Shown here one piece after another: positions 4,270-33,503 of a stretch of 35,370 bases of DNA. The stretch lies in contig JACRHV010000006.1 of NCBI GenBank assembly GCA_016211945.1, positions 110,723 to 146,092 of the forward strand, in the 5' to 3' direction. A model generated the notes under the pieces. The model ran no database searches and had not been told where the DNA came from. It was given only the letters and a program-made list of their open reading frames with translations. The position numbers and the translations under genes are program-made. Within the stretch, counting starts at the first letter, position 1; each line of letters opens with the position of its first letter. Source of the stretch: Minisyncoccota bacterium (GTDB lineage: Bacteria; Patescibacteriota; Microgenomatia; UBA1400; UBA12028).

Positions 4270-4526
4270 CACAACCTCCGATTATCGGTTTTCTCGATTC
4301 ACTTACACGCCTGCAGTTTTCGCCACAAACACCACTCATTGCGTTAAAGTTTGTGCTACTGCTCATGATGACAATGTACGCGCTTTTTGCGCTGGTGATG
4401 ATTCGGCAGATTGACCTCATGACGAAGACGATAGAAACGCCGTATACCGGCATCATCAAGATGATTGGGTATATTCATATGATCGCCGCGCTCGCAGTAT
4501 GGTTCATTGTCTTCACCGTGTTATAG
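4266..4526 (+). CDS. Small two-TM membrane protein
   Basis: 86 residues. Two predicted membrane helices, about 26-47 (LKFVLLLMMTMYALFALVMI) and 64-85 (the C-terminal IGYIHMIAALAVWFIVF), are joined by a polar loop. It overlaps the upstream PH-domain gene by ATGA, so translation is probably coupled. The gene after it begins 7 nt past its stop. This layout, a short 2-TM protein between a PH-domain protein and a phosphatase-like/propeller protein, suggests the three form one membrane complex, which is inference from context only. I do not assign a named family. Confidence 0.75.
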   Translation: MTQPPIIGFLDSLTRLQFSPQTPLIALKFVLLLMMTMYALFALVMIRQIDLMTKTIETPYTGIIKMIGYIHMIAALAVWFIVFTVL

Positions 4527-4527
4527 T
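4522..4527 (+). promoter_or_regulatory. -10 box before pseudo-PP2C/propeller gene
   Basis: TATAGT ends 6 nt before ATG at 4534 and overlaps the stop of the previous gene; it would be an operon-internal promoter. No good -35 is visible. Confidence 0.35.
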
Positions 4528-4533
4528 GAAAAT

Positions 4534-6387
4534 ATGACGTTTTCCTCAGCTCCGGTTGTAGGGGCGCCGGATAGTCAATACTGGCCACAAGTTTTTCAGT
4601 ACAGTCCTGAAGAGTCTCGTGTTTTTATCGTCGCATTTTGTGTGCAGGATGGCGAAAACACCAGAGAAAAAGGTCGAGTGTTTATCGAAAAATTGCAAAA
4701 ACTCTCCTACAGCAGAATCGAAGACCTTTCAACTGCGCTTCAGCGTACATGCACAGAATTTCATAATTATCTCGAATCTTTTACTGCCGCGTATATTGAT
4801 CACGAACTTCTCTATTTATGGTCAATGGGCAACGGGAAGGTCCATCTTCAGCGCGGACAAAAATATGGATGTGTTGTGGACAGTCAAGAATTTCGGGTTA
4901 TTGGAGGACGGATACATCAGGGGGACGTACTAATTCTTGGTACTAAGGGGTTTTTCACCGCTGTTCCGCACATAAAGATTCATGATGGAGCAACAGCTGA
5001 GGAAATAGCCGATACCGCCGTGATCACACTACAGAAATCAGCCATACAAAGTACAAGTGCAGCGTATGTTTTACAGGTAGTGGGACAGGAAGAGGAGAGG
5101 AGTAAGAAAAAAGATGTCATTGAATCGATCGTGCCGATTCACCAAGAAGTTCCTACCACCCCACCCCTTCCTCCACACAAACAGAAAAAATTGCTTTCAC
5201 GCGACGCCATCATCCTTCTTACAACGAACATTTTTCAGGGGGTGCTGAGACAATCATTTCTTCCGCGCATCTTCGTTCACTCCTTTTCAGAGAAACGGAA
5301 AAAGACAGTGATTGCCCTTAGTGCGGGAATACTCTTTGCTGTTCTCGTCCTTGTTATCGCAATAACTCGATACCAAAACAACCAAAGGAAAGCGATTGAC
5401 CGTGTTGTTACGCCATACCAACAGCGTTTAACTTCTGCACAGGGAAAACAATCAGAGGATATGATCGGTGCGCGACAGGAGACACAACAAGTGGTGAACG
5501 ATTCAACTGCGGAGCTACATCGATTAAAACCAAGGTCCACAGAATACAACGCACTGCGCCGCTTTGTTACAACTGCAGAACAATACTATGCAACAATCTC
5601 TGGCGAGAAAAAACTCGACTCACTCCCGTTATTCTATAATTTCCAACTCGTAAAATCGTCGTTTATCGCAAAAAAATCGGCGACAACCAAAAACACCGCA
5701 GTCTTTCTTGACCCAGAAGGGACGGTTATTCAGATGAATCTTCAAACAAAACAACCAACCGTTCTTGAAGCGGGAAGTGTCACTGCCCTACGGGATATAG
5801 GGTTACGCGGAAATGTGGTTGTTCTTTTTGGTGTAGGGAACAGTGGCATATTAGGTCTGTACGAGAGCGGGAAGTCTCTTGGTATTGAGGTAGATGATCG
5901 TTCCGGTCCCTCATTATTCCGCCTTTTTGGTTTATCGGCGTATGTGTATATGAAGGGCGATGGATCACTCATGAAGTATCCAAGTCAAGGTTCTGGGTAT
6001 GGAGCTGGAAAGAATTGGCTCAAATCTGCGCCAGGGCTTGATCGTAACGACGTCACTTCACTCGTTATTGATGGCAAGGTATGGATAGGCACGGCAAAAG
6101 GCGAGATATTTTCATTTGCGCAGGGGACGAAGTTGTCGTTTTCACCAAAAGGAATGTTGACGCCATTTTCCTCGAGTATTATGCTCTATACAACCCCGGA
6201 TTTACCCAATCTCTATGTCCTTGAGCCGAATGCGCAACGGCTCGTTGTCCTCGATAAAAATGGTGTGTATCAAAAGCAAATTATCAGCAAAGATATCGCA
6301 ACCACCACAGACCTTTTTGTTTCCGATGATGGGAAAACAGCATATCTTCTTGCGGGATCGCTCGTCTATTCGGTGAATCTAGAGTAA
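4534..6387 (+). CDS. Degenerate PP2C-like domain / TM helix / beta-propeller-like protein
   Basis: 617 residues from ATG 4534; an in-frame TTG at 4507 lies inside the previous gene and is less likely. Residues 1-190 resemble the PP2C/SpoIIE fold (LLYLWSMGNGKVHL, GDVLILGTKGF), but the metal-binding Asp-Gly motifs are not recognisable, so catalysis is doubtful. After a basic and Pro-rich linker, one TM helix lies at about 258-279 (IALSAGILFAVLVLVIAI). The outer part has a short coiled segment, then repeated beta-strand blocks (VWIGTAKGEIFSF, LYVLEPNAQRLVVLDKNG, DLFVSDDGKTAYLL) typical of a beta-propeller. A role as a membrane sensor or scaffold is inferred. It is the last gene of the PH-domain operon. 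Confidence 0.75.
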   Translation: MTFSSAPVVGAPDSQYWPQVFQYSPEESRVFIVAFCVQDGENTREKGRVFIEKLQKLSYSRIEDLSTALQRTCTEFHNYLESFTAAYIDHELLYLWSMGNGKVHLQRGQKYGCVVDSQEFRVIGGRIHQGDVLILGTKGFFTAVPHIKIHDGATAEEIADTAVITLQKSAIQSTSAAYVLQVVGQEEERSKKKDVIESIVPIHQEVPTTPPLPPHKQKKLLSRDAIILLTTNIFQGVLRQSFLPRIFVHSFSEKRKKTVIALSAGILFAVLVLVIAITRYQNNQRKAIDRVVTPYQQRLTSAQGKQSEDMIGARQETQQVVNDSTAELHRLKPRSTEYNALRRFVTTAEQYYATISGEKKLDSLPLFYNFQLVKSSFIAKKSATTKNTAVFLDPEGTVIQMNLQTKQPTVLEAGSVTALRDIGLRGNVVVLFGVGNSGILGLYESGKSLGIEVDDRSGPSLFRLFGLSAYVYMKGDGSLMKYPSQGSGYGAGKNWLKSAPGLDRNDVTSLVIDGKVWIGTAKGEIFSFAQGTKLSFSPKGMLTPFSSSIMLYTTPDLPNLYVLEPNAQRLVVLDKNGVYQKQIISKDIATTTDLFVSDDGKTAYLLAGSLVYSVNLE

Positions 6388-11271: not shown

Positions 11272-11277
11272 AAGGAG
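11272..11277 (+). promoter_or_regulatory. Shine-Dalgarno fixing the start of the helical repeat protein
   Basis: AAGGAG lies 5 nt before ATG 11283. The in-frame GTG at 11277 overlaps this motif and is therefore unlikely to be the start. Confidence 0.65.
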
Positions 11278-11282
11278 TGAGT

Positions 11283-13553
11283 ATGGTTTCTTTCGATTCT
11301 GTAAATAAGTTCATAGATGCGGCTGTAAGTATTGTCCCTGGCGCAGAAACACCTCAGCAACACTTGGATAAAAAAAGAAACTTATTAAATAGGAACATTC
11401 AAGCACTCACCGCTCTCGTAAAAAATGGAAATAGAGAGCTTCCTACAAGAAATTTTAACGCAAAAACCGCAAATGAATTCATTAATGCGTTTACTACAGT
11501 AATACATCACATTGCTGCAACAATGGATGGAGTGGGAGACGGAGATCGTGCGCGTTTACCAACAATTCCACGAGAATTGGTAACAGATACTCTTGATCTT
11601 ATGAATCTTATCGAGAAAAATGCGAGCGATTTAAGTATGACTGTGGATACGGGGAGGATTGCTTGGATCAGACAAACCCTTAACGGTCTCAATGTTGTAA
11701 GAAGAGAGCCTATTGTGTGGGCTAATGAAGTTGCTCGGGGAGACGAGGTTGGTACCATTGCCAGAACATTAGATACTGTTGTAGGAACAATGCTGGGTTC
11801 CGGAGTAGAGAACGCGAGTAGTACGCAACTTGCACAGATTATTCAAACAATGGCAACAAGACTTCGTGAGATTCGCGAACATCAAGTGGAGCAAGAAAGA
11901 CGAGGGGGAGAAGTTCAAAGACTAGACACGCAGATACAACAAAGGACCCTGTCGTTATGTGGAGCGATATGGCAAAGGGCACTGCTTGTCGGATTGAGAG
12001 ATGCATCTGCGGCTGAGGACTTAGGATTTATTGAGAGGGTTTTAACAAACAAAGATATTTTTGTTGGAGATACTACCCCATCTATTGTGAGAGAATCGGG
12101 CGGGAATAGAGAGGTGTTGGAGAAAGAGAAACAAATTCTTGCAAAATTCAGAGAGATACTTACCAAAGCAACACAAGGAAGAGTTCAGATATTATCGGCG
12201 GAACGGTTACGAGGATTGAATAGCTATGTAAACTCCACCATTGCGGAGCTTATTGAAGTTCACAAAAATCCAGACTGCGTCGGAATTTCCTCTGACGATG
12301 CAAAAGCGCTTGGTAGTTTGTGTCAATGGATGGACGCTCGGGCAAGGGTTTTGGAAGGTCAAGACAAGAAACTCGATCTTACGAGTATCTTGAGCACTGC
12401 GAAGCGTATTCCAGCACAATTAGGCGATAGGATTCATATTGAAGGAGATTTTCGTGGAGGATCTAGCAGTCTTGAAGGACTGTTGGAGGTTATACAAATG
12501 GAACCTCTTGAGGGACTTGATTCACATGGATTAACTAGTTTAGTAAATGATCTTCATCATGTTGTGTTTGATCTTATTGATGCACAAAAAAATAAACAGC
12601 GGAGACCTGTTTCACTTGCTGATGCCAAGTTACTTCACAGAAGTTTGATTTCTCTAAATGAGAGAGTAGAAAATTTGAGTAAAGAAACTCAAGGTTCTCG
12701 CGGAAAAAAAATATTAGAGGAAGCACAAAATCAAATAAAACAAACTCTCTCTAGCATCGGAACAAGTCTCAAAATAGAAGAAGTGTTAGATATTGCCGTA
12801 AACGAAGTTCCTGCAGCAACACAACTAGAAGGTTTAGTCGCAAAAATAAAAAACCTATCTCGTCAAGGAGATCTTGATGTGGGAGATGTGAGCGAAAATA
12901 TTATACTTCTCGATCTAGCACTGGGAAACCTACTAAGAGAACGACAAAGAAATGATGAGAAAATTCCCTATAACACATCAGATTTAACACTCGTATCTGC
13001 TATTTTAGAAAAACGCATGAAGGAACTTCAATTACCACCCCATAGTCATAATCTTTCGTCTTTGACCAACAGAATGAATTCAATTCATCAAAGAATAGAG
13101 CAACTCCGTTCTCGCTGGGAAGATCTTACATCAGTATCATTGGATGATACTCCCATGGCGCATTTACTTGATCTTTTAGGGGGAAATCCCCCAGATGCTG
13201 TAAGTGGATATGGTGAGCGGCAGGTGACTAATCTCACAGCTCAGCTTAACGCAATTATCTACGAGCTTATTGCTCAAAAAAAGCGGGGGGAAAACACTCT
13301 GCTCACTGCGCAAGATATTGAGGATTTACGATCGTTGTTAGATGTGATAAGAAGAGTGTGTGAAGGGGTGTCAGCTGGAGTAGGTCAAGAGCACGCCATG
13401 GATGTAACAATGAACCTCATCCGTCAAATTTCTGGATATTTAGATGATGGAACGTTGGGGATTGGTGGAGGAAACATAAGAAGACCTCAGCAAGCAGCGC
13501 CTCTTCCTTCTCAACCCTCCTCTTCTGGGGAATGGTGGACCAGGAAACAGTAA
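11283..13553 (+). CDS. Large cytoplasmic alpha-helical protein with about six tandem ~115-residue repeats
   Basis: 756 residues, no signal peptide or membrane helix, rich in Leu, Arg, Glu and Gln. I do not recognise a family. Internal repeats are visible: a helix of the type L-x3-L-x3-I-x-ELI-x2-QK, a short loop, then L-S/T-x2-D-x3-L-x-SL-x8-RV-x2-L. Cores begin near residues 63, 180, 309, 415, 534 and 645, giving spacings of 106-129. The clearest copies are at 309 (STIAELIEVHKN, SSDDAKALGSL), 415 (FDLIDAQKNK, SLADAKLLHRSL) and 645 (IYELIAQKKR, TAQDIEDLRSL). The C-terminus is Gly/Pro/Ser-rich and disordered. A scaffold role is a guess. The gene follows the M24 peptidase by 23 nt. Confidence 0.75.
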   Translation: MVSFDSVNKFIDAAVSIVPGAETPQQHLDKKRNLLNRNIQALTALVKNGNRELPTRNFNAKTANEFINAFTTVIHHIAATMDGVGDGDRARLPTIPRELVTDTLDLMNLIEKNASDLSMTVDTGRIAWIRQTLNGLNVVRREPIVWANEVARGDEVGTIARTLDTVVGTMLGSGVENASSTQLAQIIQTMATRLREIREHQVEQERRGGEVQRLDTQIQQRTLSLCGAIWQRALLVGLRDASAAEDLGFIERVLTNKDIFVGDTTPSIVRESGGNREVLEKEKQILAKFREILTKATQGRVQILSAERLRGLNSYVNSTIAELIEVHKNPDCVGISSDDAKALGSLCQWMDARARVLEGQDKKLDLTSILSTAKRIPAQLGDRIHIEGDFRGGSSSLEGLLEVIQMEPLEGLDSHGLTSLVNDLHHVVFDLIDAQKNKQRRPVSLADAKLLHRSLISLNERVENLSKETQGSRGKKILEEAQNQIKQTLSSIGTSLKIEEVLDIAVNEVPAATQLEGLVAKIKNLSRQGDLDVGDVSENIILLDLALGNLLRERQRNDEKIPYNTSDLTLVSAILEKRMKELQLPPHSHNLSSLTNRMNSIHQRIEQLRSRWEDLTSVSLDDTPMAHLLDLLGGNPPDAVSGYGERQVTNLTAQLNAIIYELIAQKKRGENTLLTAQDIEDLRSLLDVIRRVCEGVSAGVGQEHAMDVTMNLIRQISGYLDDGTLGIGGGNIRRPQQAAPLPSQPSSSGEWWTRKQ

Positions 13554-21899: not shown

Positions 21900-22628
21900 A
21901 TGCTAAAGATACACAATGTGCAGGTTTCCGTCGAGGGAAAACACATTCTCAATGGAGTAGACATTGAAATAAAGCCCGGTGAAATTCATGCAATCATGGG
22001 CCCAAACGGCAGTGGCAAGTCTACGTTGGCATATACACTTGCTGGGCATCCAAAATACCATGTGGATGGTGGGGAAATAGGATTAGATGGAATCAACATA
22101 CTTGACCAGTCGCCAGATCTCCGGGCGCGCTCGGGCCTTTTCCTTGCATTCCAGTATCCCGTGGAGATTGCTGGAGTTTCTGTGCAAAACTTCTTGCGTG
22201 TAGCATATGAAGCAAAATTCGGCAAGCTCAAAAGCATTATAGAATTTCGCAAGCACCTGCAAGAATTAGCAGAAGAACTTCATGTCAAAAAAGAATTAGT
22301 TGAGCGTAGTCTAAACGATGGATTTTCCGGTGGCGAAAAAAAGCGCGTCGAGATTTTGCAGATGGCAGCCCTGCAGCCAAAGTATGCGGTACTCGATGAG
22401 ACGGACTCAGGATTAGATGTTGATGCAATTAAAACCATTGCGGAAGGTGTGCGAGCAATTGTGAAAAAACACAAAACCGGTGTGATTGTTATTACACACT
22501 ATCAACGTATTCTCAAATATCTTAAACCGGATAAGGTGCATGTCATGGTCAAAGGAAAAATTATCAAAAGCGGCGGAAAAAGTTTTGCACAAGAACTCGA
22601 AAAAAGCGGGTACGCGGCATATGTCTAG
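21900..22628 (+). CDS. sufC: SufC, ABC ATPase of Fe-S cluster assembly
   Basis: 242 residues, usual length. SufC powers the SufBCD scaffold. Walker A GPNGSGKST (34-42), signature FSGGEKKRVE, Walker B YAVLDETDSGLD and the switch His in VIVITHY are all present. The SufC-typical AFQYPVEIAGVS and FLRVAYEAK stretches are clear. An AGAGGAAAG ribosome site lies upstream. Its last 8 nt overlap sufB in another frame, so sufB translation is probably coupled. Confidence 0.96.
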   Translation: MLKIHNVQVSVEGKHILNGVDIEIKPGEIHAIMGPNGSGKSTLAYTLAGHPKYHVDGGEIGLDGINILDQSPDLRARSGLFLAFQYPVEIAGVSVQNFLRVAYEAKFGKLKSIIEFRKHLQELAEELHVKKELVERSLNDGFSGGEKKRVEILQMAALQPKYAVLDETDSGLDVDAIKTIAEGVRAIVKKHKTGVIVITHYQRILKYLKPDKVHVMVKGKIIKSGGKSFAQELEKSGYAAYV

Positions 22629-24054
22629 ATTCGCTCCCATTCAGCACCCTCAACCTCAAAACAATGCGGTGATTTCTGATACCTACTCGCTCGGTTTTTC
22701 CGATCCAACAGATTCGTATGCACTGCACTCAAAAAAAGGGCTGGATGTAGCGATGATTGAACGAATCTCCGCAGAAAAAGATGAACCTGCGTGGATGTTG
22801 GCTACACGATTAGAGGCGTACAAAACATTTTTAGCAAAACCCCATCACGTCTGGCTTCCTGGGACGCACGTACTCAACTTTGAAGATATTTCATACTACT
22901 TAAAACCTGTGAATACTCGCCCGCAATCATGGGACGATGTTCCGGCCTATATCAAAAACACCTTTGACCGTATTGGTGTTCCGCAAGCAGAGCGTGATCA
23001 TTTGGCGGGACTTACCGCGCAGTACGAAAGCGAGAAAATCTACGGAAGTATTAAGAAGATTTGGGCGGATAAAGGCGTGATTTTTTTGAGTATGGATGAA
23101 GGTTTGAAACAGTACCCCGATTTAGTACAAGAATATTTTGGCAAAGTGATTCCAACTGGAGACAATAAGTTTTCAGCATTAAATACCGCATGTTGGTCCG
23201 GCGGGTCATTTGTGTATGTGCCAAAAGGTGTTCACATTGATTTGCCATTGCAAACCTATTTCAGAATTAACGCACAAAATGCGGGACAGTTTGAGCGAAC
23301 ATTGATTATCGCTGATGAGGGGAGTCAAGTAACCTATGCAGAAGGATGTTCGAGTCCGAGCTACTCCACCGCCAGTCTCCATGCCGCAGTGGTAGAAATC
23401 TTTGTGAAAAAAGGCGCACGCGTGCAGTACATTACGGTCCAGAATTGGTACAAGGATGTCTATAACTTGGTGACCAAACGTGCCTGGGTTGAGGAAGAGG
23501 GCCACATGGAGTGGTTGGATTGCAACTTGGGGAGTAAATTAACCGTGAAATATCCATCCTTTATCTTGGCAGGCAAAGGCGCGCGTGGAGAAACAATGTC
23601 TATTGCGGTCGCAAGTGGTGACCAACACCAGGATACCGGAAGCAAGGCAATCCATTTGGCTCCATATACTTCATCCACAATTATCAGTAAATCTATTTGT
23701 AAGGGGGGTGGGCGGACAACATACCGTGGCATGGTAAACATTGGGCCGAATGCGCACGGAAGTAAAAACAAAGTCGTGTGCGATGCATTGATTTTTGATC
23801 CAGAATCTCGGTCTGATACTTATCCGACTGAACGTGTGTTTACCAACGATGTTTCATTAGAGCATGAGGCAACTGTTTCTCGCATTGGCGAGGATCAGCT
23901 GTTTTATCTCATTAGTCGTGGTCTGACCGAGGAAGAGGCGGGCAAAATGATTGTGCGTGGATTCGCCGAACCATTGGTAAAAAAATTGCCGATGGAGTTT
24001 GCGGTAGAGATGAATCGATTGATTGATTTAGAGATGGAAGGATCGGTAGGATGA
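22621..24054 (+). CDS. sufB: SufB, Fe-S cluster scaffold
   Basis: 477 residues from ATG 22621, matching SufB homologues in length. The open frame extends upstream across sufC, but those codons do not look like SufB. Conserved blocks: FSALNTACWSGGSFVYVPKGVH, split here into CWSGGS and PKGVHI, then YAEGCSSP (Cys243), CKGGGRTTYRG, SKNKVVCDAL (Cys387) and LEHEATVSRIGEDQLFYL (His415). These residues are implicated in persulfide transfer and cluster assembly at the SufB-SufD interface. It overlaps sufC by 8 nt and sufD by ATGA. Confidence 0.96.
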   Translation: MSRFAPIQHPQPQNNAVISDTYSLGFSDPTDSYALHSKKGLDVAMIERISAEKDEPAWMLATRLEAYKTFLAKPHHVWLPGTHVLNFEDISYYLKPVNTRPQSWDDVPAYIKNTFDRIGVPQAERDHLAGLTAQYESEKIYGSIKKIWADKGVIFLSMDEGLKQYPDLVQEYFGKVIPTGDNKFSALNTACWSGGSFVYVPKGVHIDLPLQTYFRINAQNAGQFERTLIIADEGSQVTYAEGCSSPSYSTASLHAAVVEIFVKKGARVQYITVQNWYKDVYNLVTKRAWVEEEGHMEWLDCNLGSKLTVKYPSFILAGKGARGETMSIAVASGDQHQDTGSKAIHLAPYTSSTIISKSICKGGGRTTYRGMVNIGPNAHGSKNKVVCDALIFDPESRSDTYPTERVFTNDVSLEHEATVSRIGEDQLFYLISRGLTEEEAGKMIVRGFAEPLVKKLPMEFAVEMNRLIDLEMEGSVG

Positions 24055-24509
24055 GAAAAATTGATGTATCAGATAAATCTGGTCTTGTAGAAATAGTTCT
24101 GGATAAAGAAGGAGAAGATGTTCAGATTTTTGGTACGTTTGAAACCCGAGAGAATGAGGTACGCGAGTTGCATGTTCGCGTCATTCATATTGCCGAGCAT
24201 ACTTTAGCGAACACTGTGTTAAAGGGTGTAGCGTGGGATTCTTCGCAACTGAAATTATCTGGCACCATTGTGATCCAAAAATCTGCACAACACACAAACT
24301 CATTTTTACGTGAGAATATTTTGTTATTGTCTCCAACAGCCAAAGCAGAGGCTATTCCAAACTTGGAGATTGAGGCAAACGAGGTAAAGTGTTCGCACGC
24401 CGCAACAATTTCAAACATTCCAGAAGAGCATTTGTTTTATTTAATGAGCCGAGGAATTGAAAAACGAGAGGCAGAGGTGTTAGTGGTGAAGGGGTTTTTG
24501 GGGAGATAA
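24051..24509 (+). CDS. sufD: Very short SufD-like protein
   Basis: 152 residues, against roughly 400 or more in typical SufD. Only part of the beta-helix core and the C-terminal helical segment remain: NLEIEANEVKCSHAATIS (Cys114, His116), then EEHLFYLMSRGIEKREAE and the terminal VVKGFLG. His116 matches the conserved SufD histidine at the SufB interface. It overlaps sufB by ATGA and is probably the SufB partner. A complete, well-kept C-terminus and a start in the operon argue for real shortening, not decay. Its end is 8 nt from the stop of an unknown convergent gene. Confidence 0.85.
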   Translation: MRKIDVSDKSGLVEIVLDKEGEDVQIFGTFETRENEVRELHVRVIHIAEHTLANTVLKGVAWDSSQLKLSGTIVIQKSAQHTNSFLRENILLLSPTAKAEAIPNLEIEANEVKCSHAATISNIPEEHLFYLMSRGIEKREAEVLVVKGFLGR

Positions 24510-24517
24510 ATTTTCAT

Positions 24518-24928
24518 TCAAATAGTTTGTCCTGTAGGGAATTTTCTAGGCCTGAGAAGTTTTTCTGATGAAGTCGAACACAGTATAAAAATAATATGTT
24601 TCCCATCATTTCCTTCATATGCCGTTGGAATATTATTATTCAACAAATGTCTCCGAATATGAGCAATATTTTTTTCTTTTAGAATCGGTATAAAAAGGAA
24701 AATTTTTGCAGAATAACCATTGGTCCACGCATGTTCTTCAGATTCGAGACATAAATGACATCCTTGGTTATGAATGAATGCCCCAACCGAAATAACAAAC
24801 TCACCGAACAACGATTCTATAGAGCATTTTTCCTTTTCAATGGGTTTACGTATTGAAGTAGTGTTCAGAATAATTTCTGACGCACATTTCTTAAAAAAAT
24901 GTGAGATTCTTCTTTCAAAATGTGGCAT
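24518..24928 (-). CDS. Protein of unknown function with CxxC
   Basis: 136 residues, soluble, moderately basic. It contains a GCHLC motif near the middle, possibly redox or metal-binding, and mixed beta/alpha segments (AKIFLFIPILKEKNIAHIRRHL, shown as two parts: AKIFLFIPIL and HIRRHLL). No family recognised. A TACAAT box (24949-24944) lies 15 nt before ATG, with AGAGAG near the start as a weak ribosome site. The end faces sufD. The 136 bases between this gene and the next (24929-25064) show no gene. Confidence 0.6.
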   Translation of the reverse strand: MPHFERRISHFFKKCASEIILNTTSIRKPIEKEKCSIESLFGEFVISVGAFIHNQGCHLCLESEEHAWTNGYSAKIFLFIPILKEKNIAHIRRHLLNNNIPTAYEGNDGKHIIFILCSTSSEKLLRPRKFPTGQTI

Positions 24929-25064
24929 ATCTCTCTTTTGGAGATTGTAGCAATAATTATTTCCTGTTACAACAATGTATTTTTACTATTTACCCTCGCG
25001 TACCGTTCTCTGGAAACCTTCAAAATGCTCTCTTTGTTTATTAGAAATTTGGGATTGAATAAAA

Positions 25065-25394
25065 TTAAAGTCCAGTTTTCATCCCCTGGATAAGACATCT
25101 TCCTGCATACCCGACTGATAAGGAAAACATTATTAATGATGGAACATATTCTCCGGTAGTTATGAGATAAAGAAGTGGAGGACCATTAGCGGCAAAAGCT
25201 AAAAGTAGTGAGGGTTTGATATCGGAAGTATCAGTAATAAATCTTCGCAATGGAGTAGCGTCAGAGGCAATACGAAGAATTGAACCTAGAAGTCCAGCAA
25301 TAACACAGGAAAACCATCGTGCTCCATCACTTGAATGCATGAATTCAACGAATTTTTGATAGTATTCGATAGGAGTTTCGGGGGATATATTCAT
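25065..25394 (-). CDS. Small membrane protein of unknown function
   Basis: 109 residues. Two ATG codons are adjacent; the second (25394) is preferred because TATAAT ends exactly 6 nt before it. The N-terminus is polar. Two or three hydrophobic segments follow: about 28-45 (WFSCVIAGLLGSILRIA), 62-78 (SLLLAFAANGPPLLYLI) and 82-100. No family recognised. It lies between an unknown gene and the CsoSCA-like gene, all on the minus strand. Confidence 0.6.
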   Translation of the reverse strand: MNISPETPIEYYQKFVEFMHSSDGARWFSCVIAGLLGSILRIASDATPLRRFITDTSDIKPSLLLAFAANGPPLLYLITTGEYVPSLIMFSLSVGYAGRCLIQGMKTGL

Positions 25395-25400
25395 CATTTA

Positions 25401-25406
25401 ATTATA
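25401..25406 (-). promoter_or_regulatory. -10 box, leaderless start of small membrane protein
   Basis: TATAAT on the minus strand ends 6 nt before ATG 25394; a second TATAAT overlaps just upstream (25413-25408). Confidence 0.45.
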
Positions 25407-25460
25407 CATTATAGGTTATTATAAAGATAGACGTAAAAACCTCATTTTCTAGAGAAGTTC

Positions 25461-27185
25461 CTACACCACAAACGGAATCACCAATCTCGGTTTGCGGTTG
25501 TTGTCTACCACAGTGTTCAACACCACCACGTTTCCATGCAAGATCATATGACGGAACGCTTTGTCCTGCATCATCAATCGCATACGATCAAACAACTCGT
25601 ATACAACGTCAACAAACATGAGCATGGTTTCGGCATCGATCTTCACACGTTGTCCGCGAACGGCCTCTTTAATTAATTCTAGGACATCCTGTTTCTGCCA
25701 ACTCAACACAGTATCACTATCCCAGTTGAGTCCAGCAAACGCTCGCGCAACATGTGTTTCTGCAAAGAAGGCCCAACTTTCCTCATCGCTTCCTCGTAAT
25801 ATAGCCTTGTTGGAAATCAACACAGGAGCAGAAATAAACTGCTCTTTACTCAAGTGAAAAGTGCTCAATGGATCGCTCGCATTTCCGTTTTCACGGAACT
25901 GCCGAATCAAATCAATTGTCAATTTTGTATTTGGCAATAAAGCATTGCGATCGCGGGAGAACACCGCAAAGGCATCCAACTGCGGGAATGGCGCGTATCC
26001 ACCATCGGTAATAACGACCAAGTCCTCCTTATGATGTTCATACGGCCAGTGATGATCAATACCCGCAATAGACCATCGCGTCACCATATTTTTCATCAAA
26101 AACTTTGCCTTTTGACGGAGCGTTTTTTCGGAAATCATATGACTTTCAATATTATCATCGTGTCCAATTTTCCACACGCCCTTCTCATATGTAGAGCGAA
26201 GATATTGCAAAACAAGGTGATACACCTGACCCTCACCATGTTTATACAACTCGTGAACCGCTTTCCAGTTTGCCAACAAACTTTGAGGGAATCGCATACG
26301 AAAATCAGCGGATCCTGGTTTCAACACTGCTTTCATTGCTTTCTCTACCTCTGGTTTTTCCAAAAGATCGAGTGCGCGGACAATACGACCAGCCTTCGCC
26401 AAACTTGTCAAGACCTCTTCCGTGAACCCATGTTCTATAACACTTGGCTCATCAACGCATGTTTCCAGCCCCATCACCACACTTCCCGCGTGCGGATCAT
26501 AGGAGAAAAAGACGGGAATCACTTCCGCAACCTCTCTTTTTTGTACAAAGAGGCGACGACGAAGCTCTAAAATACCCCGAGCCGTCATCATTTTCGCCAC
26601 AATGTCTGCGCGCAGTCCCTTATCTTTTTGTTTTCCACCCTCTGTTGCATGAATAAGCCCACGGGCAGCGCATCCCAAATGTGAATCCAGGCCGTAAAAC
26701 ACCGTTTGGTGTGGCCGATCAAGCAATAATTTTTCAATTTGCTGAACGACAAATGAGGTCGTATCAATAAAAACAGCGTTAGGGCGCGCGCCTTCCATAA
26801 AACCGGTTACGATACCAGCCGGTGCGCGAAGCACGCCTCCTACATGAGGCGGTTTGGAGAACATCACGGTTGGCATGTTGCGACCATCGACACATGTTGC
26901 AAAGAAGTCGTGATTTCCAGCGCCAATATACGAACGCGCTAATTCTTGAGCTTGTGCAGTTTCCTGTGTTTCCAAATCAAGCGCACGTGCAGTACGGGAT
27001 TGAAGATAGAGCAAAGCAAATTCACGAGCCCAATCGAAAAGCTTCTCGACCTCATGTTGTGTTACTAATGTTCCGGTTCGTTTTTTGCTCTTCTCGAGTT
27101 GGTGGGTGAAAAAATAATCGAGCTGTGTGTGAAGTGTTTGAATAAGCGTTGGCAGAATAGCAGCTTTTTGTTTTTGTGCAGACAT
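25461..27185 (-). CDS. Large beta-carbonic-anhydrase / CsoSCA-like zinc protein
   Basis: 574 residues, soluble. Residues 94-102 read FFATCVDGR and 167-176 read DSHLGCAARG. This gives Cys98-x-Asp100-x-Arg102 and His169-x2-Cys172, the zinc ligands and the Asp-Arg dyad of beta-carbonic anhydrases. The GCAA-x-G after the His is close to the H-x-GCAAHG of carboxysomal CsoSCA. Between them lies VLRAPAGIVTGF, like the Ala-Gly stretch of these enzymes. About 90 residues precede and 370 follow the site; the C-terminal part has no recognised domain. Reversible CO2 hydration is possible but not proved. No carboxysome genes are seen here. The start has a strong AAGGAG site. Confidence 0.65.
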   Translation of the reverse strand: MSAQKQKAAILPTLIQTLHTQLDYFFTHQLEKSKKRTGTLVTQHEVEKLFDWAREFALLYLQSRTARALDLETQETAQAQELARSYIGAGNHDFFATCVDGRNMPTVMFSKPPHVGGVLRAPAGIVTGFMEGARPNAVFIDTTSFVVQQIEKLLLDRPHQTVFYGLDSHLGCAARGLIHATEGGKQKDKGLRADIVAKMMTARGILELRRRLFVQKREVAEVIPVFFSYDPHAGSVVMGLETCVDEPSVIEHGFTEEVLTSLAKAGRIVRALDLLEKPEVEKAMKAVLKPGSADFRMRFPQSLLANWKAVHELYKHGEGQVYHLVLQYLRSTYEKGVWKIGHDDNIESHMISEKTLRQKAKFLMKNMVTRWSIAGIDHHWPYEHHKEDLVVITDGGYAPFPQLDAFAVFSRDRNALLPNTKLTIDLIRQFRENGNASDPLSTFHLSKEQFISAPVLISNKAILRGSDEESWAFFAETHVARAFAGLNWDSDTVLSWQKQDVLELIKEAVRGQRVKIDAETMLMFVDVVYELFDRMRLMMQDKAFRHMILHGNVVVLNTVVDNNRKPRLVIPFVV

Positions 27186-27349
27186 GATGCTCCTTGAAAC
27201 TCATCTGTTTTCTTTCACGATACCCGATACTATACCACATCAAGAGATGGAGAAAATATAGGGTGAGGTTGTAGGAAAAGAAATGGTTGAAAACGTGGAT
27301 ACATACGTATACAATACACACTTCATTTAGGAAAAAGTGGGATGCGTTT

Positions 27350-28315
27350 ATGAGTAAACCACAAGAGACAAAACAATTTAATCAATCTCCTGGTTTTCCT
27401 GCAACAGGAGATGAGATAGAGTCATCTGAACAAGGAATACCCTTCATTCCGCTCAAGGATGTTTTGAGGTATGTCATAGAATCAACCGCTGTTATAGCAG
27501 CTCTTCTTGGAATGCAGCATCTTGGTCTTTTCCAGCCATATATTGAGTTATTAAATGCAGTAAAGCAATTAGAAATTCTTCAAGAAATGCTTGCCAAACC
27601 TCAAGAATTACTCAAACGTCCAGAACTTTTGGAAGAATATACAATGCTTTTTGGATTTTTACTTGGCTGCGCAGAAAATGTCTACCTTCTCATGGATATT
27701 TTGTTTCTCAAAGGTCTTATATCAACCGCAACAATGAATTGGGCCTCTACAGGAACATACACAATTGAGGACGATACGGGAGTTCGTGTGCAAGAAGTAC
27801 GATGTGGAGATCCACGAATTGAAAAGTCACTGAAGAGATCGGTCATTTTAGGTGTTGGATATAACGGTGGAAATGCATTAATGCATATGTTTGGAGGTAT
27901 GTTGCTGAATAAAATTGCTGGTGGTGGAGTAGGAGCAAAATTTGCTGTTGGTTATCTCATGGGAAGAAATTTCCCAACATTTCTCTATCAAACTCTTAGT
28001 GATTCGGTAGATATGGTAAAAGAAGGATTGGGAAGAAGGTTGTTTGTTGGGGCTGTGATAAAAAAACATCATCCGCACGATTGTGGATGTGCGATGTGTG
28101 CGATAAGCGGAATTGTTCCGCACGGACTGAAACACTCAAAGGGTGAAAGTCATAAGGCTAAGATAAAGATGTTGGATGCAATCTCAATACCAGCGCAACT
28201 TGTTCATCAAATTGCCTATCGTCCATTGGCGAACCTCGTTCTTACCCCAGCAAGTTGGGGGGGGTATTTTATACGACCAACATTAGAAGTGGATCATATT
28301 GAAGAACATCATTAA
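27350..28315 (+). CDS. Membrane-associated protein with a Cys/His cluster, unknown function
   Basis: 321 residues from ATG 27350; an earlier in-frame ATG (27287) would place the TACAAT box (27310-27315) inside the gene, so it is not preferred. Hydrophobic segments occur near 40-58, 98-120 and in a Gly-rich region (LGVGYNGGNALMHMFGG, then GGGVGAKFAVGYLMG). Residues 240-250 read HHPHDCGCAMC, a cluster that could bind metal. No family recognised. Convergent with the FemAB-like gene; the stop codons overlap on TTAA. Confidence 0.65.
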   Translation: MSKPQETKQFNQSPGFPATGDEIESSEQGIPFIPLKDVLRYVIESTAVIAALLGMQHLGLFQPYIELLNAVKQLEILQEMLAKPQELLKRPELLEEYTMLFGFLLGCAENVYLLMDILFLKGLISTATMNWASTGTYTIEDDTGVRVQEVRCGDPRIEKSLKRSVILGVGYNGGNALMHMFGGMLLNKIAGGGVGAKFAVGYLMGRNFPTFLYQTLSDSVDMVKEGLGRRLFVGAVIKKHHPHDCGCAMCAISGIVPHGLKHSKGESHKAKIKMLDAISIPAQLVHQIAYRPLANLVLTPASWGGYFIRPTLEVDHIEEHH

Positions 28316-29208
28316 ACTTTTCTTGGTCTTTCATAAATTATTTCTTTTGTCCCAAATCCTTCCTTAAATATTGTGAACCCCCTCCAATGTTTATAGTCTT
28401 GTGGAAATCGTTCATCATAGATACCGCCAAAATCAAAAACTTTGCATCCGTGTTTTTTACTTTTTCGTAATGCTTCCCATGTCAACAATGTAGGTGCGTG
28501 TTCCAAATATCCTTCTTGTGTTGAAAATGCGGTGTAGTATGTTGCAACACATTTCAACATTGGGACAATAAGCGCGGCAACCCATTGATCCTCAATTTCT
28601 GCAATAAACAATGATCCATGTCCGGCAAATTCATGGAGAAATGCAAGAAGAAAATTTGATGGATATGCGACAGCAAATTGTTTCTTTTCCCATTCTTTCT
28701 TCAGTTCAAATAATTTTTTCAAATCTTCCGGAGTAAGTTTTTCCAGAGGGATTTCTCGAATTTTTATGACATTTTTTCTTTGAGCTAATCGGATATTGTA
28801 TCGAGTTTTTTGCTTCATCTGCGCAAGAAGTTGATCTTCTGTTAAACGCAAATCAATGATTGATGTTTTTGTATGTGCAAGTGGTGAGGTTGTTGGTAAA
28901 GACTCAAATTCTTTTGCTTGTACAATATGTGCAGAAAGCGCGGGTTCGATTTGACACACAATAGTCCATCTTTCCTTTTTTATTTTTCGAATTTCATTGA
29001 GATTAATAACTTCAATTCTCTGCGCTTTCATTATTTGAAGTGGTCCGATTTTTCGAACAAAAATGTATGACCCAGATTTTCCGATTGTTTCCCAACCGAT
29101 AGCTTTCATTGTTTTCGCATACATAGGAGATTGATGAAGATCGCGAAAGTGTGAAAAAAGAGCAATACTATCAGAGGAGTTTTGTGGTTTCCGGTATAAT
29201 ACGCTCAT
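28312..29208 (-). CDS. FemAB/peptidoglycan-bridge-type aminoacyltransferase (GNAT fold)
   Basis: 298 residues. The pattern is that of CPR FemAB-like proteins: FRDLHQSPMYAKTMKAIGWE near the start, IIDLRLTEDQLLAQMKQKTRYNIRLA in the middle (TRYNIRLAQRK is the typical Fem stretch), GHGSLFIAEIEDQWVAALIV, and a C-terminal LLTWEALRKSKKHGCKVFDFGG with the closing FKEGFG (long motifs given by key words only). FemAB enzymes add amino acids to the lipid II stem peptide. The start codon shares CATG with the divergent sufS start; GAGG 7 nt upstream supports it. The stop overlaps the convergent gene. Confidence 0.82.
   Translation of the reverse strand: MSVLYRKPQNSSDSIALFSHFRDLHQSPMYAKTMKAIGWETIGKSGSYIFVRKIGPLQIMKAQRIEVINLNEIRKIKKERWTIVCQIEPALSAHIVQAKEFESLPTTSPLAHTKTSIIDLRLTEDQLLAQMKQKTRYNIRLAQRKNVIKIREIPLEKLTPEDLKKLFELKKEWEKKQFAVAYPSNFLLAFLHEFAGHGSLFIAEIEDQWVAALIVPMLKCVATYYTAFSTQEGYLEHAPTLLTWEALRKSKKHGCKVFDFGGIYDERFPQDYKHWRGFTIFKEGFGTKEIIYERPRKV
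29195..29200 (+). promoter_or_regulatory. -10 box, leaderless start of sufS, inside the FemAB-like gene
   Basis: TATAAT ends 6 nt before ATG 29207. It lies within the first codons of the divergent FemAB-like gene. Confidence 0.5.
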
Positions 29209-30436
29209 GATTGATCCTCAAAAAATACGACAGGATTTTCCCATTCTACGCCGGGTTGTTCATGGCGACAAACCATTGGTGTATCTGGACTCTGCTGCAA
29301 CAAGTCAAAAACCACAAGCGGTTCTTGATGCAATCGTACAGTATTACACGAATCATAATGCAAATGTTCATCGTGGTATTCATGTGTTGGGAGACGAGAG
29401 TACCAAAATGTTTACTTCCGCGCGGGACACCATTGCAAAGTTTTTTGGAGCAGATTCCGACGAACTGATTTTGACGAGAAATACAACAGAGGGACTCAAT
29501 GCAGTTGTATATTCTTGGGTAGAGTCTCATATCCGTAAAGAAGATACGATTCTTTTGACGGAAATGGAGCACCACAGCAACATAGTTCCGTGGCAGAGAT
29601 TTGCAAAAAGAACTGGCTGTTCTCTCGAATATATCCGCGTTTCTCCTGATGGCGAACTTGATTTGCAAGACCTCAAAAAAAAATGTACAAAACATATAAA
29701 ACTTATTGCAGTCGCACATGTTTCAAACACATTGGGGGTTATCAATCCCATCACTGATATTGTAGAACTTGCACATACTGTTGGTGCAAAAGTTGTGGTC
29801 GATGGTGCACAAAGCGCTCCGCATATGCCGATAAATTTTCACACATTAGAGTGCGATGCGTTTGCATTTTCCGGTCATAAAATGCTTGGGCCAATGGGTA
29901 TTGGTGGATTAGTGGTGCGCAAAGAAATGATGAACGAAATGGATCCATTTTTATTTGGCGGCGGCATGATCCGCGAGGTGACCTATGAAGAAACAACATT
30001 CGCAGATCTTCCGGATAAATTTATTGGCGGTACTCCGGATGTAGCAAGCACGGTTGGACTTGCTACTGCATGTGAATATTTAACAAAACTAGGAATGGAT
30101 CAGGTTTTTGCACATGATCACGAACTTGTTGAATATGCACTCGAAAAACTTTCTACTGTAGATGGTGTAAACATTGTAGGGCCTATGGAAGCAAAGAAGC
30201 GATGCGGAAGTGTTGCGTTTACCTACACAGGAGTTCATGCACATGATGTTGCACAAATTTTAGATAGCGAAGGAGTTGCAGTGCGATCAGGACATCACTG
30301 CACCATGCCGCTCCACGAAAAATTTGGATGGATAGCAACAACGCGTGCGAGTTTTAATGTCTATACAACAAAAGAAGATATTGATGCGTTAGTGCGCGCA
30401 TTGGCAAAAGTAAAAAAGGTGTTTTCTCGAGTCTAA
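29207..30436 (+). CDS. sufS: Cysteine desulfurase SufS (class V aminotransferase fold)
   Basis: 409 residues, typical SufS length. Uses PLP to take sulfur from cysteine and pass it to SufU. Visible: LDSAATSQKP near the N-terminus, HHSNIVPWQ, VVVDGAQSAPH (PLP-binding Asp), the PLP lysine Lys225 in FSGHKMLGP, and the catalytic Cys365 in RSGHHCTMPL. This is the group II (SufS-type) arrangement. The ATG at 29207 overlaps the ATG of the divergent FemAB-like gene (CATG). sufU lies downstream beyond a toxin-antitoxin pair, separated from sufCBD by about 4.7 kb. Confidence 0.95.
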   Translation: MIDPQKIRQDFPILRRVVHGDKPLVYLDSAATSQKPQAVLDAIVQYYTNHNANVHRGIHVLGDESTKMFTSARDTIAKFFGADSDELILTRNTTEGLNAVVYSWVESHIRKEDTILLTEMEHHSNIVPWQRFAKRTGCSLEYIRVSPDGELDLQDLKKKCTKHIKLIAVAHVSNTLGVINPITDIVELAHTVGAKVVVDGAQSAPHMPINFHTLECDAFAFSGHKMLGPMGIGGLVVRKEMMNEMDPFLFGGGMIREVTYEETTFADLPDKFIGGTPDVASTVGLATACEYLTKLGMDQVFAHDHELVEYALEKLSTVDGVNIVGPMEAKKRCGSVAFTYTGVHAHDVAQILDSEGVAVRSGHHCTMPLHEKFGWIATTRASFNVYTTKEDIDALVRALAKVKKVFSRV

Positions 30437-30443
30437 AATGTTC

Positions 30444-30471
30444 TTGTTTTTATGTATGAATATTGTATAAT
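30444..30471 (+). promoter_or_regulatory. Sigma70-type promoter of toxin-antitoxin pair 2
   Basis: -35 TTGTTT (30444-30449), 16-bp spacer, -10 TATAAT (30466-30471), 6 nt to ATG 30478. Confidence 0.6.
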
Positions 30472-30477
30472 TATTGT

Positions 30478-30711
30478 ATGAAAACATTAAACATTTCTCT
30501 TCCAGAAAAACTTCAAGAGGAGGCAAGCCTCTTGGTGAAGCGTGGTCATTATGTTTCTTTCAGTGATCTTGTTCGTACTGCAATACGATCTCTTTTGGAA
30601 AGATCGGTCTATGATTCGTGGTATGAAGAAACAAAAGGTGATGTAAAAAAGGGAAAGGCTATTATCCTTGAAAATAAAAAACAATTACGTCGATATATGG
30701 CGGGACTGTAA
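30478..30711 (+). CDS. ParD/CopG-like ribbon-helix-helix antitoxin of pair 2
   Basis: 77 residues from ATG 30478; the promoter decides this start over an upstream ATG at 30463. The N-terminus KTLNISLPEKLQEEASLLVKRG and YVSFSDLVRTAIRSLLE is a standard ribbon-helix-helix: strand, helix, turn, helix (quoted in two parts). The C-terminal half is charged and would bind the toxin. RHH antitoxins normally repress their own promoter, so the -10/start region is the likely operator. The toxin gene follows after 5 nt. Confidence 0.82.
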   Translation: MKTLNISLPEKLQEEASLLVKRGHYVSFSDLVRTAIRSLLERSVYDSWYEETKGDVKKGKAIILENKKQLRRYMAGL

Positions 30712-30716
30712 TAGAG

Positions 30717-30977
30717 ATGCGCACAGTATTTTCCGTTCATTTCCAAAAAGATTTAAAAAAAATAATAAAGAAAAATCCGGGATATAAGAAAAAAATAACA
30801 GCCAGTATTGAAAAGCTCATGGAAAATCCACAACATCCGTCTTTACGACTTCAAAAACTTTCTGGTCAACATAACTGGTCTATTTCTCTTGATAGATCAA
30901 TACGCATGATTTTTCGCTATGAAGAAAATACGCTCTATTTCACAAGAATAGGAACGCATGACGAACTATATATGTAA
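30717..30977 (+). CDS. RelE/YafQ-like toxin of pair 2
   Basis: 86 residues. It shows the RelE-superfamily pattern: basic N-terminal helices (FQKDLKKIIKKNPGYKKK), then NPQHPSLRLQKLSG, WSISLDRSIRMIFRY and the closing IGTHDELY, with the Arg and His expected in the active cleft. Probably a ribosome-dependent mRNA interferase. It is a paralogue of the toxin at 3026-3298, although the antitoxins differ. The pair is inserted between sufS and sufU. Confidence 0.87.
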   Translation: MRTVFSVHFQKDLKKIIKKNPGYKKKITASIEKLMENPQHPSLRLQKLSGQHNWSISLDRSIRMIFRYEENTLYFTRIGTHDELYM

Positions 30978-30996
30978 ATGAATGTGTTCATTGGAG

Positions 30997-31002
30997 TATG
31001 AT
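30997..31002 (+). promoter_or_regulatory. -10 box, leaderless start of sufU
   Basis: TATGAT ends 6 nt before ATG 31009. Confidence 0.4.
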
Positions 31003-31008
31003 ACTGCG

Positions 31009-31368
31009 ATGTCCGATCTCTACCAAGAAATTATTCTCGATCACGCGCAACACCCAAGAAACTTTGGTGTGTTAGACAATCCAACACACACGATTCGGGA
31101 ACTCAACGCAAGTTGTGGCGACAACATTGAGTTTTCATTTCACATAAAAGACAATATTATTCAGGATATCGCATGGAAAGGAGCGGGATGTGCGATAAGC
31201 ACCGCGAGTTCTAGTATTATTTCCGATCTCATCAAGGGAAGAACGGTCCAATACGCAAAATCGCTGACTCAGCATGAAGTTTTTCGTGAAATAGGCGTTT
31301 CTTCGATCCTTCCTACTCGAGAAAAATGCCTCATGCTTCCGCTCCGCGTTCTTCGCAGTCTTCCTTGA
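31009..31368 (+). CDS. sufU: SufU-like Fe-S scaffold / sulfur-transfer protein, compact form
   Basis: 119 residues from ATG 31009. The three ligand cysteines are present: NASCGDNI, GAGCAISTASSS and REKCLMLPLR. The N-terminus SDLYQEIILDHAQHPRNFG is SufU-like. The segment between the second and third Cys is shorter than in Bacillus-type SufU, lacking the roughly 20-residue insertion, so the length is nearer to IscU. It would accept sulfur from SufS. The Asn in NASCGD replaces the more usual Pro-containing NPxCGD. The tsaC-tsaE gene follows after 18 nt. Confidence 0.88.
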   Translation: MSDLYQEIILDHAQHPRNFGVLDNPTHTIRELNASCGDNIEFSFHIKDNIIQDIAWKGAGCAISTASSSIISDLIKGRTVQYAKSLTQHEVFREIGVSSILPTREKCLMLPLRVLRSLP

Positions 31369-31386: not shown

Positions 31387-32472
31387 ATGAAGATTCTCGA
31401 TCTCAAAACTCTCCCCGTTGATCAAGTCATTCAGGAGACTGTCCATGTTCTATCTGAAGGAGGTCTTGTGGTGTATCCAACAGAAACGACCTACGGCATT
31501 GGCGTTGACGCAACGAATCAATTCGCGGTAGATAATCTTTTGAAATATAAAAAACGACGTGAAGGAAAACCCCTTTCTATTGCGGTATTTGATGAATACA
31601 TGGCCGCATATTATGTTCAGTTGAACGAAAAAGCACGCGAAATCTACGCAACATTTTTACCGGGGCCAGTAACAGTTGTTTCAACAGGAAGACATGTGGT
31701 TGCACAAGGGGTGGAGTCGGAGGTCGGAACGTTGGGCATTCGTATTCCCAACTATCCACTTGTACTTCAAATAGTGAAAGCGTTTGGAAAACCGATTACC
31801 GCAACAGGGGCCAATGCATCGTATAAAAAACGCCCATATTCGATACAAGATATTTTCAATCATATTTCTGAGCGTCAAAAAGCACGGATTGCGTTAGTGT
31901 TGGATGCGGGTGAGCTTCCGCATAACGAACCGTCAACAGTGATAGACACAACATTGGATGACGTAATGGTTTTGCGGCAAGGAAAAATTTCATTTTCTGA
32001 AAAAAATGTAAAGATAACGAAAAATGCAGAAGAAACGCAAATACTTGGGAAGCAATTGATGTCAAAGTATAAAAATATACTGACGTATAAAGCGATTGTA
32101 TTTTGTTTACAAGGAGAAATGGGAGCGGGGAAAACGCAGTTTGCAAAGGGCATAGCACAAGCGTTGGGAGTACACCAAACAGTGAGTTCACCAACCTACA
32201 CCCTCTCGAATGAGTATGTATTTGAAGCAGAGGGAAAAAAGACAAAGTTCATTCATATTGATACATGGCGTTTATTTAATAGTAAAGAATTTTTAGAACT
32301 AGGATTCGAACATATGATTGATGCGTGTGATGTTATTGTGATTGAGTGGGCGGAAAAAATTGAAGATGTTCTCCACCAATTTGGTGATGAAGCAAAACTT
32401 CTCTGGGTAATGATTGACCAAGGGAAAAAGGAAAATGAGAGAATCATTCATGTTGGAGATATGGCTCTATGA
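31387..32472 (+). CDS. TsaC-TsaE fusion protein (t6A tRNA modification)
   Basis: 361 residues. Residues 1 to about 205 are a TsaC/YrdC/Sua5-type threonylcarbamoyl-AMP synthase: VVYPTETTYGIG, KYKKRREGKPLSIAV, LPGPVTVV, GIRIPNYP, TATGANAS and PSTVID. From about 208 the chain becomes TsaE, the ATPase of the TsaBDE complex: Walker A GEMGAGKT (243-250), SSPTYTLSNEY, HIDTWRL and the conserved IEWAEKI. The two are normally separate proteins. The open frame is continuous with no stop between the domains. The last 4 nt overlap tsaD (ATGA), so the t6A genes are one unit. A TACAAT box ends 10 nt before ATG. Confidence 0.92.
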   Translation: MKILDLKTLPVDQVIQETVHVLSEGGLVVYPTETTYGIGVDATNQFAVDNLLKYKKRREGKPLSIAVFDEYMAAYYVQLNEKAREIYATFLPGPVTVVSTGRHVVAQGVESEVGTLGIRIPNYPLVLQIVKAFGKPITATGANASYKKRPYSIQDIFNHISERQKARIALVLDAGELPHNEPSTVIDTTLDDVMVLRQGKISFSEKNVKITKNAEETQILGKQLMSKYKNILTYKAIVFCLQGEMGAGKTQFAKGIAQALGVHQTVSSPTYTLSNEYVFEAEGKKTKFIHIDTWRLFNSKEFLELGFEHMIDACDVIVIEWAEKIEDVLHQFGDEAKLLWVMIDQGKKENERIIHVGDMAL

Positions 32473-33503
32473 TCATTCTTGCGATCGATACATCATGCGA
32501 TGATACTTCGGTGGCGATTTCGAGTGACAATGTTGTATTGGCAAACATTATTTTCTCACAAGTTGCACTACACAAAGAATGGGGTGGTGTGGTTCCAACT
32601 ATTGCAAAACGCGCACACCAAGAACACATTGATGGTGTGATTCAGAAAGCAATGAAACAAGCAAAAATGTCACTTTCATCAATAGAAGTGTTCGGGGTGA
32701 CGCAAGGGCCGGGGCTTGCCATTGCGTTGGAAGTTGGAATCGCGAAAGCAAAAGAATTGGCAAGTACATACAACAAGCCTTTGGTTGCGGTGAATCACAT
32801 GGAAGGACACTTGTATGCGAATTTTGCTGCAACGCATAGTAGTCAAAAAAAAGACATTCAATTTCCCGCGCTCGTATTATTAGTGTCAGGTGGACATTCC
32901 GATCTTTTCATTATGCGTGATCATGGACACTACGAAAAATTAGGGGAGAAATTAGACGATGCAGTGGGAGAGGCATTTGATAAGGTGGCGCGTATGCTTG
33001 GCCTTGGATATCCTGGTGGTGCATTGCTCGCAAAATTAGCAGAAAAAGGCGATTCATCAATCTATAAATTTCCAGTACCACTGCATCAAGTGAAGGATTT
33101 TAACTTTAGCTATTCTGGATTAAAAACGGCGATTCAACGCGTCATAAAGGAAAAAACAGCGAATGGCACACTGTTAGCACAATATGAAATTTGTGATATT
33201 TCAGCATCATTTCAACGCGTTGCAATACACCATCTCATTGAAAGAGTTGAACGCGCACTTCAAATATATGAAGTGAAAAGTTTATTGTTGGGAGGCGGTG
33301 TTTCTGCAAATCTTCTTTTACGAAAACATTTGAGAAATATAGCAAAAAAATATCATGTCGAATTTTTCTATCCAAAAAATAAAAAGTTATGTATGGATAA
33401 CGCTGCGATGATTGCGGTAACGGCGTGGTACAAGGCGATGCGTGGAGAATTTGTAAAAGATTTTGACAGAAATCCTGGTATGAGCATTGAGAGTTCTCAC
33501 TAA
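32469..33503 (+). CDS. tsaD: tRNA N6-adenosine threonylcarbamoyltransferase TsaD
   Basis: 344 residues, normal length. TsaD transfers threonylcarbamoyl to A37 of ANN-decoding tRNAs. The ASKHA-fold ATP motifs are present (AIDTSCDDTSVAI, LLVSGGHSDL, LLLGGGVSAN). The metal ligands are His110 and His114 in NHMEGHL and Asp310 in LCMDNAAMIA. It overlaps the TsaC-TsaE gene. A TsaB gene, its usual partner, is not seen in the window. The stop overlaps the stop of the small convergent gene (CTAA). Confidence 0.96.
   Translation: MIILAIDTSCDDTSVAISSDNVVLANIIFSQVALHKEWGGVVPTIAKRAHQEHIDGVIQKAMKQAKMSLSSIEVFGVTQGPGLAIALEVGIAKAKELASTYNKPLVAVNHMEGHLYANFAATHSSQKKDIQFPALVLLVSGGHSDLFIMRDHGHYEKLGEKLDDAVGEAFDKVARMLGLGYPGGALLAKLAEKGDSSIYKFPVPLHQVKDFNFSYSGLKTAIQRVIKEKTANGTLLAQYEICDISASFQRVAIHHLIERVERALQIYEVKSLLLGGGVSANLLLRKHLRNIAKKYHVEFFYPKNKKLCMDNAAMIAVTAWYKAMRGEFVKDFDRNPGMSIESSH

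Follow-up and report, generated by a model that had tools for sequence, protein, structure and literature searches.

A probable free cytosolic beta-carbonic anhydrase of CsoSCA-like architecture in CPR bacteria

What a protein bearing the motifs of a carboxysomal carbonic anhydrase might do in a CPR bacterium, away from any carboxysome or Rubisco gene, is the question raised by an open reading frame on the minus strand (25461-27185) of the 35,370-nucleotide stretch of DNA analyzed here, hereafter the window. The frame runs from an ATG at 27185-27183 to a stop at 25461 and encodes 574 amino acids; a ribosome binding site, AAGGAG, can be read from the sequence 4 nt upstream of the ATG (27190-27195, minus strand). 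The gene occurs once in the 908-kb genome assembly, which is listed as 100% complete. An earlier reading made from the sequence alone (the sequence-only reading), which gave no strand, had singled out the motifs CVDGR (residues 98-102), HLGC (169-172) and GCAARG (171-176) in a protein of this length, and both the frame and the motifs are as it described. The analysis presented here indicates that the protein is probably a free cytosolic type-I beta-carbonic anhydrase (beta-CA) with the architecture of CsoSCA, and that it represents a new family.

Single-sequence searches of Pfam, NCBIfam, PHROGs and the PDB returned nothing useful and recognized no family; weak matches to CGI-121, STAND and SDR were discarded as noise. 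The Pfam model of canonical beta-CAs (Pro_CA, PF00484) did not match the protein, nor did the DabA model (PF10070, E up to 10). The three CsoSCA models (PF20687, PF20686, PF08936) did not match the query at E 0.001 or any of 11 family members at E up to 10, and in a positive control two true CsoSCA proteins matched all three of them at 1e-36 to 1e-105. A profile search had been proposed as a check by the sequence-only reading. The standard profiles miss the protein; the three best PDB matches of a profile built from the family itself were beta-CAs, aligned at the Cys98 motif with weak E-values of 0.07-0.43. The family is too diverged to be recognized by current family databases.

Searches of whole genomes, together with a scan covering 85,000 species genomes, identified 21 relatives of the protein, and all named records from the scan belong to CPR/Patescibacteria (Roizmanbacteria, Pacebacteria, Paceibacterota, Beckwithbacteria, Woesebacteria, Levyibacteriota, Peribacteria and Magasanikbacteria). 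The family comprises two subfamilies and has a patchy distribution, its carriers amounting to 5 of the 88 genomes of the order and 13 of the 374 genomes of the class, one doubtful match included. Collections of phages, plasmids and viral contigs contained no relative, and the literature searched, with partial coverage, yielded no description of a CsoSCA-like CPR family. Two genomes harbor tandem, diverged paralogs of the gene (L045/L047 and L043/L046), all of which keep CxDxR, HxxC and HxE.

Pairwise identity within the alignment of 22 sequences (the query and its 21 relatives) ranges from 19 to 79% with a median of 25%, and only 11 positions are invariant: C98, D100, R102, G124, H169, C172, A174, G190, H385, E387 and P399. 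The C-x-D-x-R and H-x-x-C motifs of the beta-CA fold are thus present in 22 of 22 sequences, and even the most diverged members retain them together with HxE. Since C98, D100, R102, H169 and C172 are invariant at a median identity of 25%, the motifs are not due to chance, and the proposal that CVDGR (26880-26894, minus strand) and HLGC (26670-26681, minus strand, followed by AARG) occupy the zinc and Asp-Arg positions of beta-CAs is upheld, with Cys98, His169 and Cys172 as putative zinc ligands and Asp100-Arg102 as the putative dyad. The active-site residues of Halothiobacillus CsoSCA are C173, D175, R177, H242, C253, H397 and E399 (PMC9164163, Table 2), a list that was consulted only after the 11 invariant positions had been determined, and all seven have invariant counterparts in the CPR family (C98, D100, R102, H169, C172, H385 and E387). 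The nominal probability of placing seven named sites among 11 of 574 positions is about 1e-13, a figure that is too favorable, since motifs partly guided the choice of counterparts.

A structural model was predicted with AlphaFold2 from the 22 sequences (pLDDT 90.4, pTM 0.89), replacing an earlier model from 5 sequences in which the active-site region was of low confidence and CsoSCA was already the top match. In a Foldseek comparison of the new model with the PDB, matches one to five were CsoSCA chains (E 6e-6 to 1e-4, probability 1.00), the sixth was the duplicated (fused) Porphyridium beta-CA 1ddz, and the remainder of the top 50 consisted of beta-CAs only, so that the predicted model has the beta-CA fold. 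Structure prediction had been suggested by the sequence-only reading, and its outcome agrees with that reading, CsoSCA being the best match, followed by other beta-CAs rather than an unrelated fold. A Foldseek comparison with the viral library yielded nothing significant, the two best entries being viral carbonic anhydrases. Alignments to CsoSCA span 559-623 columns; for the predicted model the TM-scores are modest (0.40-0.51), with an rmsd of 8-11 A and about 10% identity, and these modest scores and the large rmsd suggest that the domain arrangement or loops differ from those of CsoSCA.

In the predicted model an N-terminal helical domain (residues 1-88, with an approximate edge at residue 88; 26922-27185, minus strand) with helices at 2-36, 40-71 and 74-87 precedes a catalytic beta-CA domain (approximately residues 89-384; 26034-26921, minus strand). 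Here, a strand at 91-98 ends at Cys98 and a strand at 161-167 leads into His169 and Cys172, and in the model these three residues sit where beta-CAs place their zinc ligands. The C-terminal domain (residues 385-574; 25464-26033, minus strand; strands 387-393, 404-409 and 455-462) opens with His385-Lys386-Glu387 (26025-26033, minus strand), the putative counterpart of CsoSCA His397 and Glu399, and reads ITDGG at residues 392-396 in contrast to CVDGR in the catalytic domain. This degeneration and the span of the Foldseek alignments point to a pseudo-dimer in which a single zinc site is left and the second domain is defunct. No internal repeat between the two domains was detected by hhalign, and their duplication therefore rests on structure. 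The most plausible reading of the C-terminal 370 residues, which the sequence-only reading had left without a role, is that they comprise the remainder of the catalytic domain and a second, defunct CA domain that carries His385 and Glu387.

CsoSCA (PDB 2FGY, 9G4T, 8THM; PF20687-PF20686-PF08936) follows the same three-domain plan with one active and one defunct CA domain, and C-x-D-G-R, GCAA-x-G and an H-x-E in the second domain are common to it and the CPR protein, whose best Foldseek matches it provides. Four CsoSCA sequences (Hn and Cyanobium from PDB alignments, two more from plasmid records) read C(A/S)DGR, YH-x10-C within GCAAHG, and GHxE, which bears out the earlier remark that GCAARG echoes CsoSCA. 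In domain-wise hhalign comparisons, the best local pairs brought together CVDGR and CADGR in the catalytic domain and H385-x-E387 and H397-x-E399 (GHAER in CsoSCA) in the C-terminal domain, and column shuffles scored as high in 2 of 300 and 1 of 300 cases, respectively. The hhalign probabilities are low (below 1% for whole profiles and at most 2.5% domain-wise) because the CsoSCA profile has four sequences; the domain-wise alignments are weak but in register.

The differences from CsoSCA are nevertheless considerable. The CPR protein has HxxC where CsoSCA has H-x10-C (3 versus 11 residues from His to Cys), so that the equivalence of His169 and H242 rests on role and not on register; it is longer (574 versus 514 aa) at about 10% identity, and its gene lies outside any context of the kind formed by the cso operon, in which CsoSCA is encoded with Rubisco and shell genes. 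N-terminal helices are predicted by AlphaFold for the CPR protein, and CsoSCA has an N-terminal hook motif and forms a hexamer. Given the HxxC spacing, the lack of matches to the CsoSCA Pfam models and the absence of a cso operon, we refer to a CsoSCA-like, CPR-specific family and not to CsoSCA. Free-standing CsoSCA homologs outside carboxysome loci, CsoSCA2, are known from other phyla (PMC9164163, PMC11086599), and it has been suggested that the carboxysomal enzyme may have arisen from free ones (PMC9164163). The CPR protein resembles CsoSCA2 in lying outside any carboxysome locus, in combining a putatively active and a defunct domain, and in having counterparts of all active-site residues; CsoSCA2, however, can be assigned to CsoSCA on sequence grounds and falls short of it in length, whereas the CPR protein is longer and is missed by the CsoSCA models. 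Thus, this kind of protein is already known, and the CPR family is a new, much diverged variant of it.

Other beta-CAs share parts of this organization. The beta-CA of Porphyridium purpureum (PDB 1DDZ), the sixth Foldseek match, likewise has two beta-CA domains in one chain. Both of its halves are active, whereas the CPR protein keeps the zinc residues in only one. Canonical Pro_CA proteins share the C-x-D-x-R ... H-x-x-C zinc site with its canonical spacing, but are single-domain homo-oligomers of about 200 aa. Three CPR proteins of about 150-170 aa (L049, L050 and L051) carry C(M/I)D(G/F)R and H-x-x-C, fall below the Pro_CA cut-off and are, judging from these motifs, other unrecognized single-domain beta-CA-like proteins.

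The absence of carboxysome and Rubisco genes, remarked upon in the sequence-only reading, extends to the whole genome. No PF00016 (Rubisco) was detected in the source genome and no PF00936 (BMC shell) in 17 carrier genomes, and Rubisco-positive genomes and carriers do not overlap except in one genome (G287), whose weak match to the family (E 4e-4) is probably false; concentrating CO2 for Rubisco is therefore not the role of the protein. PF00484 has no match in the source genome either, and 0 of 137 genomes searched in the class pass its cut-off. Gene order is not conserved around the relatives examined, and since their flanking genes differ, the CA gene behaves as an independent unit. The simplest interpretation of its role in the cell is that it provides bicarbonate for small needs or buffers pH. 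Bicarbonate is consumed by TsaC in t6A synthesis, and the window encodes a TsaC-TsaE fusion and TsaD; the presence of TsaC in the same window as the CA gene is only suggestive of a link to bicarbonate demand.

Several further features of the window were recorded. The fusion of TsaC (Sua5/YrdC) and TsaE (361 aa; 31387-32472, plus strand) is followed directly by TsaD (32469-33503, plus strand) in a compact t6A operon. The SUF genes (21900-31368) form two blocks, sufC-sufB-sufD and sufS with a sufU-like gene, with the CA gene and others between them. Directly after sufB lies a SufD-like gene (24051-24509, plus strand; 152 aa) whose match is confined to the latter part of the SufBD core (profile 97-232), and a ribbon-helix-helix antitoxin and YafQ/ParE-like toxin pair (30463-30977, plus strand) separates the sufS-like from the sufU-like gene. 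Two large open reading frames on the plus strand (4507-6387, 626 aa; 11277-13553, 758 aa) have no Pfam match at E 0.001.

Based on homology and conservation, a mechanism can be proposed, in which we infer the zinc, CO2 as the substrate, the direction of the reaction and a position of His385 close to the metal. Zn2+ would be bound by Cys98, His169 and Cys172, with water as the fourth ligand. Asp100, held off the zinc by a salt bridge to Arg102, would orient the zinc-bound hydroxide attacking CO2, and His385 with Glu387, contributed by the dead domain, would stabilize the bound intermediate, as is thought for His397 of CsoSCA; in ordinary beta-CAs this residue is Gln. The enzyme would thereby equilibrate CO2 and bicarbonate in the cytosol and buffer pH, and might supply bicarbonate to the few reactions needing it, a candidate being the synthesis of threonylcarbamoyl-AMP by TsaC in t6A formation.

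The same fold and zinc site could instead serve another substrate. The beta-CA fold supports hydrolysis of COS and CS2 in known enzymes, and the position of the gene between sufC-sufB-sufD and the sufS/sufU-like genes would suit such a function in sulfur handling, but the relatives examined lack a SUF neighborhood and have other flanking genes, and the invariant His385/Glu387 pair fits the CA-active CsoSCA set; we consider this reading unlikely. Loss of catalysis, with the beta-CA fold kept for a structural or regulatory function, would be in line with the degeneration already seen in the second domain and with a genetic context that does not point to CO2 use. This is very improbable, however, given that all catalytic residues are invariant in a family whose subfamilies otherwise share about 20-25% identity. 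Chance occurrence of the motifs in an unrelated fold, a notion to which the lack of any significant single-sequence match might lend itself, is refuted by the invariance of the motifs in 22 homologs and by the Foldseek results, and we give it practically no weight.

The organization of the protein is also reminiscent of DabA, the PF10070 subunit of the DAB CO2 uptake complex, which is built from a helical domain at the N terminus and two beta-CA-like domains, with an Asp-Arg dyad and a single Cys2His zinc site (PMC13144422), so that the CPR protein could be imagined as the cytosolic part of a membrane pump that takes up CO2, a pseudo-dimeric beta-CA subunit working as a vectorial CA. DabA, however, has a membrane partner, DabB, and among the neighboring genes of the window that were tested there was no match to a DabB-type membrane family; DabA has His524 and Cys539 in place of HxxC, and PF10070 found no match. 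Moreover, the stabilizing residue of canonical beta-CAs is Gln or His, and DabA2 has Leu658 at this transition-state position, a substitution considered partly responsible for its low basal activity (PMC13144422). This loss is not seen in the CPR family, where His385 is invariant in 22 of 22 sequences, which argues for an ordinary active CA and makes a DabA-like pump highly unlikely.

With a free cytosolic CA as the preferred explanation, a broader proposal can be put forward tentatively, and with considerable doubt: that the family is a CPR-restricted, deep lineage of asymmetric beta-CAs with one active site for two domains, which forms the sister group of CsoSCA and has at no time had a link to Rubisco, or else acts on another substrate. 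If the sister relationship is true, asymmetric pseudo-dimers were present earlier than carboxysomes and independently of them. The family bears on the origin of CsoSCA in that it may combine this asymmetric architecture with the canonical HxxC spacing in cells that lack Rubisco. It would also offer a natural test of the function of the dead domain, in which His385 and Glu387 are as conserved as the putative zinc ligands. Finally, CPR bacteria seem nearly devoid of recognizable beta-CAs, and in scattered lineages this gap would be filled by a hidden family that has the full CsoSCA-type site.
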